DNA of 37,923 nt from Deltaproteobacteria bacterium (lineage in GTDB: Bacteria; Desulfobacterota; Desulfomonilia; UBA1062). The position numbers and the translations under genes were made by a program. The notes under the pieces are model-generated. The model was not told where the DNA came from. It did no database searches and saw only the letters and a list, made by a program, of their open reading frames with translations. This document shows, in pieces, positions 1,533 to 37,780 of this stretch (within the stretch, counting starts at the first letter, position 1; every line of letters begins with the position of its first letter). The stretch lies in the NCBI GenBank assembly GCA_017992605.1, contig JAGOOG010000019.1:1-37923 (forward strand), given 5' to 3'.

Positions 1533-1780
1533 CAAAGAAAACAAGGATTTGTGAGGTCACCGAACGACCCGGTAGCGACTTCGAAAAAACATCCCGATTA
1601 TCCCCGTACCTGCCAACACATGAATCGATGCCAAGATACTCCTCTCCATAGGATGCGATGACTTCAAGCAAACTGCATGCCATCATGTTCATCATTGATA
1701 TCCATATATTAAATGCATCTCCCCACCAGAATGTGTTGGATTTCCGCCACAGCGGCACTGCCATATCAACACACCCGGCC

Positions 1781-28942: not shown

Positions 28943-30322
28943 ATGGCCCTGGAACTCAAGCAGCATCTCAAGCTGGCGCAGCAGCTCATCATGACGCCGC
29001 AGCTCCAGCAGGCCATCAAGCTCCTCCAGCTCTCCAGGCTCGAGCTGCAGGAATACATTGAAACCGAGCTCGAGCAGAACCCCCTGCTCGACGTCGACAC
29101 TACCAGGGTCCGCGAGGAAACCCCTGAGTCCATCGCCGAACGGCAGCAGCTGAGACAACGCTGGGATGCCTACCTGGAGACCTACGGCCAGGACAACATC
29201 CCCTACTACGAGGACGAGGAGCGGCCCTCCATCGAGTCCACCACTTCGAAACCCGAGGGCCTCCTGGACCATCTCCTCTGGCAGATCAGGATGAACGACT
29301 TCACCGAGAAGGAACGCGAGATAGGCCTGTTCATCATCGGCAACCTCGACCACAACGGGTACATGTCGATGGACACGCAGACGATCTGCGAGGAGGCCGG
29401 GGCAACGCCGGGCGAGGTGGAATCAGCCATCGAAAAGATCCAGCGGTTCGACCCGCCGGGCATCGCTGCCCGGGACCTCAAGGACTGCCTCCGGATCCAG
29501 TCCCGGATCCTGGGGCTGGAAGGCTCCCTCGTGTGGAAGATCATAGAGTCCCACCTGAACGACCTCCAGACCAAGAACTACAACAAGATCGCCCAGGACC
29601 TCGGTGCCACCGTCGACGACGTGGCCGAGGCGGCCCAGATCATCGTCAACATGGAGCCGCGCCCGGCCCGCGACTATTCCGACGACCCCCCCCAGTACAT
29701 CGTACCGGACGTGTATGTGGTGAAGCTGGAGGGGGAGTACGTGGTCCTGCTCAACGAGGAGGACCTGCCCATACTCAAGCTCAACAGGGAATACCAGGGC
29801 ATGATGAAGTCGGACGCCATGGGCAAGATGGCCAGGGACTATCTCTCCGACTGCTACAAATCGGCCCAGTGGCTCCTGAAGAGCATCCAGCAGCGGCAGA
29901 ACACCCTGTGCAAGGTCACCGAGAGCATCGTCAAGTTCCAGAGGGATTTCCTCGACCATGGCATCACGCACCTCAAGCCGCTGGTGCTGCGCGATGTGGC
30001 CGATGACGTGGGCATGCACGAATCCACCATAAGCAGGGTTACATCTAATAAATATGTGCACACCACCCAGGGCACATTCGAACTCAAGTACTTTTTCAAC
30101 AGCGGCATATCCAAGAGTGACGGCAGCTTCGTGGCATCCCAGAGCGTCAAGAACGAGATCGAGAACATCATCAAGGCGGAGGATGTCAGGCATCCTCTGA
30201 GCGACCAGGCCATTGCACAAAAACTCAAAGGGAAAGGGGTGAGCATCGCACGCAGGACCGTAGCCAAGTATCGCGAGCTGCTTGGTATTCTTCCCTCCAA
30301 CCAGAGGAAGAAGCACTTCTGA
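28943..30322 (+). CDS. rpoN: RNA polymerase sigma-54 factor
   Basis: 459 residues. The Gln/Leu-rich activator region I (LKQHLKLAQQLIMTPQLQQAIKLLQLSRLEL) is at the start, then an acidic region II (about 50-110). The core-binding region follows and the DNA-binding part has an HTH (LKPLVLRDVADDVGMHESTISRVTSNKYV, -12 recognition) and the RpoN box ARRTVAKYRE (436-445), which reads the -24 element. It needs NtrC-type ATPases for open complex formation; one is encoded at 36404-37780. It is the classical downstream neighbour of lptB and the hpf-ptsN pair. Confidence 0.98.
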   Translation: MALELKQHLKLAQQLIMTPQLQQAIKLLQLSRLELQEYIETELEQNPLLDVDTTRVREETPESIAERQQLRQRWDAYLETYGQDNIPYYEDEERPSIESTTSKPEGLLDHLLWQIRMNDFTEKEREIGLFIIGNLDHNGYMSMDTQTICEEAGATPGEVESAIEKIQRFDPPGIAARDLKDCLRIQSRILGLEGSLVWKIIESHLNDLQTKNYNKIAQDLGATVDDVAEAAQIIVNMEPRPARDYSDDPPQYIVPDVYVVKLEGEYVVLLNEEDLPILKLNREYQGMMKSDAMGKMARDYLSDCYKSAQWLLKSIQQRQNTLCKVTESIVKFQRDFLDHGITHLKPLVLRDVADDVGMHESTISRVTSNKYVHTTQGTFELKYFFNSGISKSDGSFVASQSVKNEIENIIKAEDVRHPLSDQAIAQKLKGKGVSIARRTVAKYRELLGILPSNQRKKHF

Positions 30323-31416: not shown

Positions 31417-32718
31417 TTAATCCTCGTCGTCATACTGGGGCGGGTTGAGCGCCTCGGGCGGAACCTCCGATGCGATGGAGCGGTTGATGCCCCTCGAAAG
31501 GATGACCGCGATGCTGAACAGGATGACCATTGCGCCGAAGATGATCAGGATGATGGTGGTCAGCCATACCTGGGCTTCCTTCTCGATCTTGCCGGACTCG
31601 AGCTTGGCCTGCTCCAGGAACTTCTCCACGTCGACGGCCATGCCCACCCATCCGAAACCTGCCGGTTTGGGGTAGTCCGCCGTATAGAAGGGAACCGGGG
31701 CGTAGGCCACGATCTTGGTATGGTCCTCGAACTTGTAGGTCTTGATGCCCGACTTGCCTGCCACGGCCTCTCTGGCCACTTCGGGCAGGGCGGGATCGAT
31801 GCCGCCGAGCTGGTTGAGGTTCAGCACCTCTTCACCCTTCTTCCTCATATCCTCGTAGGTGGCCGATGTGACCGGGGGGACCTGGGTCCCGTCCTTGTAA
31901 AGGCCCACTATGTGATAGTCGTCCGGGTGGGAGATGACGTATCCCCGGTTGTCGACGAGATAGGCGTAGTTGCCCGTAGAGCTGTCCGACTCAATGACGT
32001 ACTCGGCCTCGGTCGGGATGATGTTATCCGTATATCTGGCAAGGGCTCTCACATCCATGGCGAGGGCGAGAACCCCGGTGAAACCCTGCTTGTCGAACAG
32101 CGGAGTTGCCATTCGGATAATCCCCTCGAATCTCTTCCCTTGTTCAAACTCTGCCTTGTTTACATACCACCCGGTGACCTGGGAGATAAAGACCTCACCC
32201 TTGTTGAGCTCCTTGGCCCTTGTGAAATAATCCTCCACCTTGTACGTGGTATTGGCAGGATTCGTCACGTTGACCAGCTCTTCGGCGGGCACGATCTTAC
32301 CGTCCCTGATCCTGATGAGCTCATTCCCGTTGGTGTCGGTGAGCGTCGCCTCTACATAGAGCGGCAACTGCTCTTTCACGATGCCGGTATCTTTCTTAAC
32401 CCAGAGGTCATAGGTCTTGGTCTCCAGGAACTGCTTGTAGGCCTGCGCGTTCACGGGAAGGATGGTGGTGATGAGGATATCCTTCTGCCGCTCGCGAAGG
32501 AAATCGGCGATATTCTGTGCAACGTCCGTCGCACGCACGCGGATCTCCTGCTGCGCCTTCTGGTCAAGAGCTGCCATCGTGCCTGTCTTGGACAGGCCGC
32601 CAAGGTTGAAGATGCTGAAGGCAATAAGGGAAGCTATCAGTAATAAGGGGATGATCACAAGCAGGAAAAATAACCTTGCAACCGTTAACAAGCGACTTCC
32701 TTTGATCGATTCAGGCAT
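31417..32718 (-). CDS. Orphan double-Cache-domain membrane protein without output domain
   Basis: 433 residues. It has a first membrane helix (residues about 10-38), a periplasmic dCache sensor (about 50-375: YFTRAKELNKGEVFISQVTGWYV, MATPLFDKQGFTGVLALAMDVRAL, YAYLVDNRGYVISHPDD) and a second helix near 390-415. Only a short tail follows, ending in the acidic YDDED. There is no HAMP, MCP, kinase or cyclase domain, so this is a free sensor. GGGGG lies 5-6 nt before ATG 32718. It lies 54 bp after atpE on the same strand and may share the sigma-54 promoter there. Function unknown: it could modulate another signalling protein. Confidence 0.85.
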   Translation of the reverse strand: MPESIKGSRLLTVARLFFLLVIIPLLLIASLIAFSIFNLGGLSKTGTMAALDQKAQQEIRVRATDVAQNIADFLRERQKDILITTILPVNAQAYKQFLETKTYDLWVKKDTGIVKEQLPLYVEATLTDTNGNELIRIRDGKIVPAEELVNVTNPANTTYKVEDYFTRAKELNKGEVFISQVTGWYVNKAEFEQGKRFEGIIRMATPLFDKQGFTGVLALAMDVRALARYTDNIIPTEAEYVIESDSSTGNYAYLVDNRGYVISHPDDYHIVGLYKDGTQVPPVTSATYEDMRKKGEEVLNLNQLGGIDPALPEVAREAVAGKSGIKTYKFEDHTKIVAYAPVPFYTADYPKPAGFGWVGMAVDVEKFLEQAKLESGKIEKEAQVWLTTIILIIFGAMVILFSIAVILSRGINRSIASEVPPEALNPPQYDDED

Positions 32719-32772
32719 TTTTTCCCCCTTATCATGCATAGCGTTCTGTTAAAGTATACCCCCGGTAGTCCA

Positions 32773-33147
32773 TCATCCAAACAGGAAAGTCTTGTAGGGG
32801 TTCGCGAAGATGAGAATAAGGGTGATAACCAGCGAGTAGATTGCGATGGATTCGGCCATTGCCATACCGACCATCATGGTCATCATGATCTTGCCCTGGG
32901 CGGCTGGATTCCTGCCCACCGCTTCGGAAGCGCCCGCTGCTGCATTACCGATGCCCGCACCCGCACCGATGCACCCCAGGCCGATGGCAAGGCCCGCACC
33001 GATCATGGCGCCGACGGAGAAGATCACCTTGATGAGCGGATCCCCGGCAGGGATTGCGTCAGCTGCAAAGACGGCGGGTGACGACAGAAGCCATACTGCT
33101 GCTGTTGCTGCAAACGTGAACAGGAATTTGGTTGCGTGACGATACAT
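32773..33147 (-). CDS. atpE: F0 ATP synthase subunit c with N-terminal extension
   Basis: 124 residues, longer than the usual 70-90 because of an N-terminal signal-peptide-like extension ([22 protein letters not shown]). The two-helix hairpin has [23 protein letters not shown] in helix 1, the RNPAAQ loop, and [20 protein letters not shown] with the ion-binding Glu99 in helix 2. The helix 1 glutamine of Na+-binding rings (as in Ilyobacter) is not evident, so H+ is the likely coupling ion. AGAAAGGAGA lies before the ATG. The other atp genes, including atpB, are not adjacent. A sigma-54 promoter stands 74-88 bp upstream. Confidence 0.95.
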
Positions 33148-33220
33148 ATTGGTCTCCTTTCTTACTGATAATGGTTTCGCTCGCATCATTGAGTGAATCC
33201 TCAATGTTGCCCCCAGAAAA

Positions 33221-33235
33221 GCAATAGCTGTGCCA
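33221..33235 (-). promoter_or_regulatory. Sigma-54 promoter (-24/-12) upstream of atpE
   Basis: Minus strand TGGCAC-AGCTA-TTGC: GG and GC dinucleotides are separated by exactly 10 bp, matching the TGGCAC-N5-TTGC consensus, followed by T. It lies 74 bp before the atpE ATG; transcription would begin near 33209. No convincing sigma-70 promoter is seen upstream of atpE. Confidence 0.65.
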
Positions 33236-33315
33236 CCATGCATCCCACGGTTGCAATAATACGCAACTAACCGTTATTGATGATGTTTTGCTCTACCTCG
33301 AGGTCGTGTCTCCTT

Positions 33316-33371
33316 CCTGACCAGATGGTCCGGTTAAACGTATCGTTCAATTGGGTCCCGTGAGGTTGAAC
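33316..33371. promoter_or_regulatory. Candidate enhancer sites (two palindromes) upstream of the atpE sigma-54 promoter
   Basis: A near-perfect palindrome at 33316-33333 has core GACCA-ga-TGGTC with CC/GG outer pairs. A second inverted repeat has GTTCAA (33345-33350) and TTGAAC (33366-33371) 15 bp apart. They are about 85-140 bp upstream of the -24 element, where NtrC-type activators usually bind. A further exact palindrome, ACCTCGAGGT, lies at 33295-33304. Which of these binds a protein is unknown. Confidence 0.35.
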
Positions 33372-33453
33372 AAAAGATGCTACACCCCGATGAGCATGAT
33401 ACACGACATATAATAAGGATACACCCTGGCATCGGCTAGAGGTGGACGCCATT

Positions 33454-33717
33454 ATGGTGTTGAACAGAATGTGTATTCCTTATACAATGCCTGAACCGGA
33501 AGCAGGGATACAGGCACCACGAACTCCACAGAGAAGGCTGGTGGGCATGCGGGAAATCGGCGCCATCGCGGCATATTTGATTTCATGGCTCTTCTGCGAA
33601 CTGGTCCTCGGCATTCAGAGCGGCCTGCTCACCCTGATCATCTCACTGCTCTTCGCCATCGGCATCTATGCCCTCATCGCTGTCGCAGAGCACGAGGAGA
33701 GGGACAAGAACGCATAG
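33454..33717 (+). CDS. Small membrane protein, unrecognised
   Basis: 87 residues. A polar N-terminus with prolines is followed by two membrane helices (about 35-53 and 56-77) joined by GIQSG, and a charged tail (AEHEERDKNA). I chose ATG 33454 because AGAGGTGG lies 8 nt upstream; a GTG 12 nt earlier or an ATG near 33547 are alternatives. A TATAAT at 33409-33414 has no clear -35 partner. It precedes the histidine kinase by 59 bp on the same strand and could be part of that operon. I do not recognise the family. Confidence 0.6.
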   Translation: MVLNRMCIPYTMPEPEAGIQAPRTPQRRLVGMREIGAIAAYLISWLFCELVLGIQSGLLTLIISLLFAIGIYALIAVAEHEERDKNA

Positions 33718-33776
33718 ATGACGCCCCCGGAGCTCTCTCTCACGCACCGCAGCCGGCATGACGAGGGAACCGGGAG

Positions 33777-36344
33777 ATGAGTCCCTCCTTCCCCATGAAC
33801 AAGAAGATCTCCACCACCTACCTGAGGTACTCCATCTGGCTGACCGCGCTGATCGTCGTCGTCCTCATCGTCCTCCTCGCGCTGACCGTGTACACCGTGC
33901 GCGAGCGGTCCATCATCGAGCTCTTCAGCCAGCAGCAGGCATCCATAGCGGAGCAGAAAGCCTCCCGCATCAACGAGACGATCGCCAAGTGCGAGAAAGG
34001 CCTCGTGATGCTCGCCGGCAATGCCTCCCTCGCGGACGACGACCCAGCGGTGAGAGAGAAGCTCCTGCAGACCCTGTACGAAGAGCTTCCCGGCATCATC
34101 CTGACCGTTGCCCTGCTCGACGGTGACGACGTGATCCGCGCCGTCTATCCCCACGACGCGGAACCGGGCATGACCGGGAACAGCATCGAGGACCCTGCCG
34201 TGGTGCATGCCATGAAGAAGATGCACCAGCGCTACATGGGAGAACTGACCGTCACGGACGGGCCCACGGGCCCCTCCGCGAAGACCGTGGCCATAGGCAT
34301 GCCCATCATTGGTCCTGCTCAGACGTACCGGGGCGCACTCCTGGCCGTTCTGCATCCCGGGTTCATTGTCGGCCGCCGTCATCCTCCAGGCATGGCCGAC
34401 CCGGGAGACTTCTGGCTCGTCGATGAATCCGGCCTCATCGTGTTCCATCCCGACAGTGCCGTGATCGGCTCGTCCATCGAGGACCTCTCCCCGCCCGGGG
34501 ATTCCCCGTTCCGGATGTTCACCTACGCCGACAGGCACTACCGCGACATCGTCCTGAAAAAGGACGGCGGGCTGGAGACCTGCATCGCCGCCTATGCCCC
34601 CATCAGGATCGGCATCTCCCAGTGGTGGGTCGTGCTCGTGACCCCCCACGAGAAGGTCCTGGGTCCTGTCCGGAGGGCATCGCTGAACATCATGCTCGGC
34701 GCCATGGGCCTCATCGCGGTGACCATCGTCACCGCCGTGTCCATCGCCCGGTCCGACGTGAAGCGAATGCGGCTGAAGGAGGAGCTCAAGAGGCTCAAGG
34801 AACGCGAGGAGTGGCAGTCCAAGCTCCTGCGGGAGAAGATGACCATGGAGGGCATCGTCGAGGGGTCCCCCGTGCCCATGTTCGTCATCGACAAGAACCA
34901 CCGGGTCATCCTGTGGAACCGTGCCTGCACCGACCTGACCGGCTGGGGGCCGGAGGAGATGATCGGAACGGATCATTATTATAAGCCGTTCTACGAGATC
35001 AAGCGACCGTTCCTGGCTGACTTCATCGTGGACGGCAACGCGGGTGACTTCGAGACCTTCTACGGTGAGGGAAAGGTGGCCAGGTCCGAAACCATCGAAG
35101 GCGCCTACGAGGCGGTGAAGCACTTCACCAAGTTCAAGGGCAGGGATCGCCACCTCCACTTCCTGGCCGCTCCCATCCACAACGAGAAGGGCGAGGTCGT
35201 GGCCGCCATAGAGACGTTCCTGGACGTTTCGAAGGAGGTCGAGCTGACCAGGAATCTCCAGGAGTATGCCGAGACCCTCCAGAACGAGCTCGAGGAGAAC
35301 ATCCGGCTCAACAGGGAGGTTGAGAAGCTCTACCGCTATCTCCAGAGCATCCTCGACAGCCTGCCCGACAAGGTCTATGAGCTCAACCGTGACGGCATCA
35401 TCAACTATGTGAGCAGACAGATCCGCCCGGGGGTGTACGATCCCAAGGGAAGGCACTTCACCGACTACGTGCTGCCCGAGCACAGGAATTTTGTCATCAC
35501 CAAATGGGAGGACGCCAAGAAGGGCATCTTCAGACCTTATGAGCTGGAGTTCGTGAACAAGGAGGGCAAGAAGCGGTACCTCCTCATGACCCCGGGCCCG
35601 GTCAAGGGCACTGACCGTTTCGTGCTGGTGGAACGCGACATAACCGAGTTCAAGGAGCTCGAGAAGAAGTTCTACGAGAGCCAGAAGCTCGCCGCCATCG
35701 GCCAGCTCTCGGCAGGCATCGCCCACGAGGTGCGCAATCCCCTGTCGTCCATCAAAATGAGCCTGCAGATCCTGGAGAAGCGCTTGCAGCCCGACGGTAA
35801 CGACCTCAAGCGCTTCAGGATAGCCCAGCGGGAGGTGGAGCACCTCGAAAAGCTCGTCAGCGACGTGCTCATCTATGCCAAGCCATCGGCCCCGGCCAAG
35901 GCGCCGTGCGACATGCGCTCCATCATCGACCAGGCCCTGGCCATGGTTGAGAAGTCGATCAACGACAAGGAGATCGACGTCGTGAAGAACTACCAGGAGC
36001 CTGTCGATCTCATCAGTGTCGATCCTTCCATGATCAGCCAGGCACTCATCAACATCTTCCAGAACGCAGTGGATGCCATGGACCACGGGGGGCGGCTCGT
36101 CATAGCGATGAAGATCGACCACGCAGCCCTGACCCTGGAGATAGAAGACAACGGGTGCGGCATTCCCGAGGACGATCTGCCCTACCTCTTCAACCCGTTC
36201 TTCACGAAGAAGAGCTACGGCACCGGTCTCGGGCTGACCCAGGTCGAAAAGATCATCGACCAGCACGAGGGGAGCATCCAGGTGCACAGCAGGAAGGGAG
36301 AGGGCACAAGATTCGTGATCGTTCTTCCGAGAGGCATGGTATGA
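33777..36344 (+). CDS. Membrane sensor histidine kinase (Cache-PAS-PAS-HisKA-HATPase), NtrB/ZraS type
   Basis: 855 residues. TM helix 1 (about 20-42), an extracytoplasmic double-Cache domain (about 45-295; DFWLVDESGLIVFHPDS is typical) and TM helix 2 (about 300-322) come first. A short coiled coil leads to PAS 1 (about 358-485: SPVPMFVIDKNHRVILWNRACTDLTG), a second coil and PAS 2 (about 520-620). The HisKA box has the phospho-acceptor His650 (AHEVRNP), and the ATPase has N763 (QNAVDAM), DNGCGIPEDD and GTGLGL. It should phosphorylate the NtrC-type regulator encoded 59 bp downstream. The ligand is unknown. Confidence 0.96.
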   Translation: MSPSFPMNKKISTTYLRYSIWLTALIVVVLIVLLALTVYTVRERSIIELFSQQQASIAEQKASRINETIAKCEKGLVMLAGNASLADDDPAVREKLLQTLYEELPGIILTVALLDGDDVIRAVYPHDAEPGMTGNSIEDPAVVHAMKKMHQRYMGELTVTDGPTGPSAKTVAIGMPIIGPAQTYRGALLAVLHPGFIVGRRHPPGMADPGDFWLVDESGLIVFHPDSAVIGSSIEDLSPPGDSPFRMFTYADRHYRDIVLKKDGGLETCIAAYAPIRIGISQWWVVLVTPHEKVLGPVRRASLNIMLGAMGLIAVTIVTAVSIARSDVKRMRLKEELKRLKEREEWQSKLLREKMTMEGIVEGSPVPMFVIDKNHRVILWNRACTDLTGWGPEEMIGTDHYYKPFYEIKRPFLADFIVDGNAGDFETFYGEGKVARSETIEGAYEAVKHFTKFKGRDRHLHFLAAPIHNEKGEVVAAIETFLDVSKEVELTRNLQEYAETLQNELEENIRLNREVEKLYRYLQSILDSLPDKVYELNRDGIINYVSRQIRPGVYDPKGRHFTDYVLPEHRNFVITKWEDAKKGIFRPYELEFVNKEGKKRYLLMTPGPVKGTDRFVLVERDITEFKELEKKFYESQKLAAIGQLSAGIAHEVRNPLSSIKMSLQILEKRLQPDGNDLKRFRIAQREVEHLEKLVSDVLIYAKPSAPAKAPCDMRSIIDQALAMVEKSINDKEIDVVKNYQEPVDLISVDPSMISQALINIFQNAVDAMDHGGRLVIAMKIDHAALTLEIEDNGCGIPEDDLPYLFNPFFTKKSYGTGLGLTQVEKIIDQHEGSIQVHSRKGEGTRFVIVLPRGMV

Positions 36345-36403: not shown

Positions 36404-37780
<1,377 letters not shown>

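Follow-up and report, generated by a model that had tools for sequence, protein, structure and literature searches.

An additional gene for an ATP-synthase c subunit, here called c-A, is preceded by a sigma-54 promoter in a bacterium of the Desulfobacterota. The gene was studied in a stretch of 37,923 nucleotides (contig JAGOOG010000019.1; hereafter the window). Together with the receptor gene that follows it, Cache-A, it appears to be switched on by a sensor and an activator of its own, encoded divergently beside it. The c subunits of ATP synthase are generally regarded as constitutive housekeeping parts. The components of this system are known ones, and their arrangement is without description in the papers searched, in which we found neither an orphan c gene under the control of a sensor nor a c/Cache pair. 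The features of the window are listed in Table 1.

The relatives used for comparison are metagenome-assembled genomes of uncultured Desulfobacterota, including "Ca. Phosphitivorax" Phox-21 (L096) and UBA1062 (L099). Some members of "Ca. Phosphitivorax" have been described as syntrophic butyrate oxidisers (PMC7082340).

Table 1. Features of the window considered in this work.
Feature	Position	Strand	Remarks
rpoN (sigma-54)	28943-30322	plus	Orthologues found by tblastn
Cache-A: TM, dCache, TM, short acidic tail, no output domain	31417-32718	minus	dCache_1 E 9.9e-16
c-A, accessory c-subunit paralogue with signal-like N-terminus	32773 or 32776 to 33147	minus	PF00137 E 9.7e-19
Inverted repeat with 91% complementary arms	33183-33210	minus	Within the predicted 5' leader; may be an operator or hairpin, conservation not strong
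Sigma-54 -24/-12 promoter element TGGCAC-N5-TTGC	33221-33235	minus	Exact match; c-A/Cache-A operon
Candidate UAS, 17-bp dyad TTGAACG-N3-CGTTCAA	33333-33350	minus	1 mismatch in the window
Small conserved protein, 56 aa, two predicted hydrophobic helices	33547-33717	plus	First gene of divergent set
Histidine kinase with its own dCache, PAS domains, HisKA, HATPase	33777-36344	plus	Profile matches
NtrC-family response regulator: receiver, AAA+, Fis-type HTH	36404-37780	plus	Presumed activator of c-A/Cache-A

Sigma-54 promoter of the c-A/Cache-A operon

A preliminary description of the window had placed a -24/-12 element with GG-N10-GC spacing 74 bp before atpE (our c-A) and had seen no strong sigma-70 alternative. 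Both statements were borne out. The element, TGGCACAGCTATTGC (33235-33221, minus strand), is exact, has the canonical spacing, and is the sole zero-mismatch match in a consensus scan of the window. Its last base is separated by 74 bp from the c-A ATG (33147), for which AAAGGAG serves as the Shine-Dalgarno sequence. A sigma-70 scan of the minus strand from 32400 to 34200 found no sigma-70-like site.

Because a lone exact match could be luck, the promoter was tested in three ways: by counts in the genome, by alignment of upstream regions and by comparison of orthologous loci. In a pattern search of the contigs of the window's genome, TGGCAY-N5-TTGCT was present at 18 sites, compared with 2 for the reversed control pattern. 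Several of the other sites lie just 5' of an Amt-type transporter gene and of FlgH, FlgF, MotA and FliK-type flagellar genes, whose identities were read from their translations. Amt-type transporter and flagellar genes are typical sigma-54 targets, so the consensus behaves as a sigma-54 signal in this genome. When 11 orthologous upstream regions were aligned, they were nearly unalignable save for the -24/-12 element, the Shine-Dalgarno sequence and one upstream block.

The preliminary description had also proposed a search for the same spacer in relatives. The -24/-12 element precedes the orthologous c-A gene in 36 of 36 A-type loci, with 0.06 expected in dinucleotide shuffles; these loci represent about 33 independent genomes (two genomes are duplicated via different collections, and L074-L076 are near-copies). 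They span at least five Desulfobacterota families, and the distance from element to start ranges from 87 to 132 bp. Both requisites of sigma-54 transcription, rpoN and an NtrC-type activator, are encoded in the window's genome. We conclude that the sigma-54 promoter 5' of c-A is real.

The inverted repeat in the predicted leader was considered as a conserved hairpin and rejected. It is not kept in relatives, and its fold z of -1.0 is not significant. Two further consensus sigma-54 sites are of note. One, in the window itself (1667-1682, minus strand), precedes a lipoprotein-like gene of that strand by 270 bp. The other is in L058 at about 1500, 50 bp before the gene for a small periplasmic protein resembling ZraP/CpxP.

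Divergent kinase, regulator and candidate activator site

The small open reading frame that heads the divergent set was absent from the preliminary description. It was present in all 22 A-type relatives examined, with E values of 1e-8 to 1e-30, and its product gave no Pfam match (longer frame) and no NCBIfam match. The transmitter of the kinase is AtoS/ZraS-like and scored below the NCBIfam equivalog cut-offs. The regulator was likewise below these cut-offs, with 480 against 714 for AtoC and 341 against 760 for ZraR. Its AAA+ loop is GSFTGA, a variant of GAFTGA. Its recognition region, GISRPTFERKLEKYGI, is nearly invariant among relatives, and the regulator is 75-91% identical in linked loci, even where Cache is only 52-57% identical. 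A single sensor shared by Cache-A and the kinase was rejected, as their dCache domains have no significant similarity.

Almost every A-type locus whose flank is long enough also has the kinase and regulator genes linked to the c gene; L065 has them too, but on the opposite side of Cache. The earlier proposal of a sigma-54 promoter driving atpE and the Cache gene is supported, and this linkage indicates that the divergent pair belongs with it. The same proposal had pointed to the nearby rpoN. We rejected that proximity as evidence because rpoN is close to c-A only in near relatives (L059, L061, L062 and L063); most other A-type loci lack a neighbouring rpoN, and the linkage of rpoN to the module is probably incidental.

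The centre of the candidate UAS dyad lies about 108 bp upstream of the -24 GG, and the spacing is 105-111 bp in most loci of the window's family (f1). A weaker half-site copy lies another 32 bp or so upstream. The window's genome has the full pattern once, at the c-A locus, with one other site at two mismatches. Over 34 loci, the mean best mismatch was 2.71, compared with 5.52 in shuffles. In some loci of f32 and other families the site is a weaker match or lies at about 190 bp, and in a few it is not detectable.

Cache-A and its pairing with the c gene

The Cache gene had been described as an orphan, which does not fit the wider sample: a c gene accompanies it throughout, and there are two paralogous versions of the pair, A and B. 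Wherever a fetched A or B locus includes the upstream gene, a dCache gene follows the c gene on the same strand. Standalone c/Cache pairs occurred in five of the sampled Desulfobacterota families. A viral or mobile origin was considered and rejected, as a search of viral contigs gave no hits. The longer Cache-A frame starts at 32739. We took 32718 as the better start since the conserved sequence AAGGGGGAAAA precedes the ATG there in relatives; this leaves a gap of 54 bp to the co-directional c-A.

In the structural model of Cache-A (pLDDT 83), a TM helix, the dCache domain, a second TM helix and a short tail follow one another. The model matches dCache structures of kinases and chemoreceptors at Z of about 20, including vpHK1S-Z8 (3lie, Z 20.3) and amino-acid chemoreceptors. 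This is a match of fold only, with no convincing sequence relative of Cache-A among solved structures. Outside the pair, the closest relatives of Cache-A are full dCache-HAMP-HisKA kinases of the phylum, with about 32% identity. Cache-A ends after TM2, at the point where HAMP follows in these relatives, and carries no HAMP, kinase, GGDEF or MCP output. Since the relatives are kinases with HAMP after the same TM2, Cache-A is best described as a receptor without an output domain.

Paralogous c-B/Cache-B pair

In the window's genome, c-B and Cache-B are 55% and 38% identical to c-A and Cache-A, respectively. Gene order and protein types are the same in both pairs. However, the promoter of the B pair is sigma-70-like, with a conserved dyad close to the start, and the pair lacks a sigma-54 site (0 of 18 B-type loci), a UAS and a linked kinase and regulator. 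The dyad of the B loci, ATTCAGA-N7-TCTGAAT (L002, about 1396-1480), lies just past the sigma-70-like promoter and is a candidate repressor operator.

In family members that have Rnf, c-B/Cache-B lies directly 5' of rnfABCDGE-nfnAB (e.g. L084, 7416-16808). No rnfC above the cut-off was found in the window's genus (g1; G000-G004), and this genus keeps c-B-Cache-B-nfnAB. As the B pair heads rnf-nfn clusters, the c/Cache pair is tied to membrane ion energetics. The position beside rnf agrees with a passage in PMC13343851 (citing Brandt and Muller 2015), according to which Rnf-dependent anaerobes often have several atpE copies.

c-A compared with other c subunits

c-A scored above the cut-offs of PF00137 (67.8 bits against 24) and TIGR01260 (48.4 against 43.95), and its best PDB match was the c1 subunit of Acetobacterium woodii (4bem). 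In a c-subunit tree with few columns and rough bootstrap, c-A formed a clade (97/100) separate from the canonical c and the N-type c of the family; with such a tree, c-B has no firm branch position. A pN/pS of about 0.09 indicates that c-A is under purifying selection.

The window's genome has a standard atpI-atpB-atpE locus on contig C35 and an N-ATPase locus on C39. It encodes exactly two a-subunits, and its c genes are the F-type, the N-type, c-A and c-B (contig C25), the last two being additional genes outside the atp loci. In three nearly complete genomes from other families, a single a-subunit is accompanied by two c genes, c-A being one of them. c-A is not adjacent to an a-subunit gene and is not the ATP-synthase c gene of its genome, so the earlier view of it as part of ATP synthase assembly is not supported in the simple sense. 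Nor is a place beside atpB a reliable norm for c genes, as had been supposed, since the ordinary c gene is solitary in other Desulfobacterota families, at a distance of kilobases from atpB. It stands alone in L214, L215 and L216; in L214 and L215 it is kilobases away from atpZ-atpI-atpB, beside 2-oxoacid oxidoreductase-like genes.

c-A keeps the rotor carboxylate Glu65, Tyr70, the Arg-Asn-Pro (RNP) loop and the glycine motif. Glu65 is present in all A-type c subunits and Ser66 in nearly all. The Na+-type signature Gln32/Glu65/Ser66 (Ilyobacter numbering) is broken in c-A by Ile32. Residues were numbered on an I. tartaricus sequence that we take to be the reference, and whose residue numbers are self-consistent; alignment with A. 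woodii c1 independently shows Gln opposite Ile32. This ion-ligand position is Ile in 22/22 A-type c subunits and in 11 more c-A from other families, and Gln in 11/12 canonical c subunits of f1, including the window genome's own ATP-synthase c. In the A and B clades alike, position 32 is hydrophobic and the RNP loop and Glu are invariant. In ordinary c subunits of class relatives the residue is Met, and because position 32 varies among ordinary c subunits, an argument from it to ion specificity is weak.

Several members of the family (L119, L125, L126, L127, L132 and L134/L154) encode c-subunit hairpins fused in one frame (ORFs of 326-576 aa, 4-6 domains by hmmsearch). They adjoin a single-hairpin c with Glu at ion position 32, and the fused form is absent from the window's genome.

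Proposed function and alternatives

The promoter, the UAS, the gene pairing, the separate clade and the residue change are read directly from the sequences. From these we propose a conserved five-gene module, in which the genes for the small protein, the dCache histidine kinase and the NtrC-type regulator are divergent from c-A and Cache-A. The kinase would sense an extracytoplasmic signal. The phosphorylated regulator would bind the upstream dyad and activate sigma-54 polymerase at the -24/-12 element. Transcription would then co-induce the additional c-type proteolipid together with the output-less dCache receptor of the membrane. c-A keeps the ring-packing and ion-binding features but has Ile32; it would most likely join or replace c in the existing F1Fo rotor and alter its ion site. 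Cache-A may be a ligand-responsive partner that controls assembly or activity. This proposal as a whole, with c-A as a sensor-induced rotor subunit and Cache-A as its controlling partner, is our preferred reading, which we hold tentatively and judge to be nearly as likely right as wrong. The invariant F1-facing loop favours it, as do the low number of a-subunits relative to c genes in this genome and in the three of other families, the purifying selection on c-A and the place of the B pair at the head of rnf-nfn clusters. Four observations count against it: no sequence feature explains why a rotor subunit should require a receptor partner in every genome, c-A comes without an a-subunit of its own, position 32 is variable among ordinary c subunits as well, and the window's genus has lost Rnf yet retains both c/Cache pairs.

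It is also possible, if less than probable, that c-A works outside ATP synthase. Its own ring or oligomer would then be the membrane partner of Cache-A (a channel, an ion sensor or a signalling base) in a two-component receptor. The strict pairing of c and Cache in at least five families, in two paralogues with different promoters, favours such a receptor complex, as does the form of Cache-A, a sensor of kinase type that breaks off at the expected start of HAMP. The absence of an a-subunit with the pair and the hydrophobic ion-ligand position in A and B point the same way. On the other hand, A and B share without exception the polar RNP loop, which contacts F1, and the Glu that carries the ion; a non-rotary role would not obviously require either. 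We know of no precedent for a complex of a c-ring and a receptor, which also counts against it. A more specific idea is that a ring of c-A (and of c-B) is coupled to the output-less dCache protein; an extracellular ligand would thereby gate, or read, an ion-carrying c-ring, and the A-type device would itself be induced by a dedicated sigma-54 two-component system. We consider this rather unlikely.

The sigma-54 promoter could be real and yet answer to another regulator of the cell rather than to the neighbouring NtrC-type protein. Other sigma-54 promoters, and presumably other activators, exist in the genome, and the match between the HTH of the neighbouring regulator and the UAS is itself presumptive. 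However, the linkage of kinase and regulator persists across nearly all A-type loci with enough flank, even in one rearranged locus, the UAS is unique in the genome, and the B loci lack both UAS and regulator. A different activator is thus improbable. It is more doubtful still that a past duplication of ATP synthase left c-A and Cache-A behind as redundant copies that have neither special regulation nor special function. According to the passage in PMC13343851, anaerobes of this kind commonly carry several atpE copies, but the low pN/pS, the conservation of promoter and UAS over families and the invariant c/Cache pairing make this very hard to sustain. That the -24/-12 match is mere chance and a sigma-70 promoter drives atpE has next to no probability: a single 10-base match alone could arise by chance, but not readily in 36 of 36 loci against 0.06 expected, and the c-A strand has no sigma-70 site from 32400 to 34200.

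An extra c subunit is found under a dedicated and widely conserved sensory sigma-54 circuit and always has a truncated receptor as its partner; in bacteria that include the "Ca. Phosphitivorax" group, Rnf-Nfn energy-conservation clusters begin with its paralogue. This suggests that energy-starved uncultured anaerobes may alter a rotor part, or put it to another use, as needed. If c-A enters F1Fo as we prefer to think, the rotor would change in response to a signal, perhaps in its coupling ion or its ion-to-ATP ratio, which would allow a direct test of life near the thermodynamic limit. If c-A stays out of F1Fo, a rotor protein would have been turned into a receptor component.

Comparison with known systems

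The A. woodii hybrid rotor with c1, c2 and c3, and the Rnf anaerobes with multiple atpE genes, resemble the present case in having extra c genes in a low-energy anaerobe, and here the B paralogue lies beside rnf. The c genes of A. woodii are inside the atp operon and are not known to be sensor-controlled. In contrast, the extra c described here is outside the atp operon, with its own sigma-54 and two-component control and a dedicated dCache partner. Cache-A shares the TM-dCache-TM layout and the fold of dCache histidine kinases and chemoreceptors; it differs from them by stopping after TM2 with a short acidic tail and no output domain. With the NtrC, AtoSC and ZraSR systems, the module shares a dCache/PAS kinase, an NtrC-type regulator with AAA+ and Fis HTH, and a -24/-12 promoter with a dyad UAS about 108 bp upstream of -24. 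It differs from these systems in scores below the AtoS, AtoC and ZraR equivalog cut-offs, and in its target, which is a proteolipid and a receptor instead of metabolic or envelope genes.
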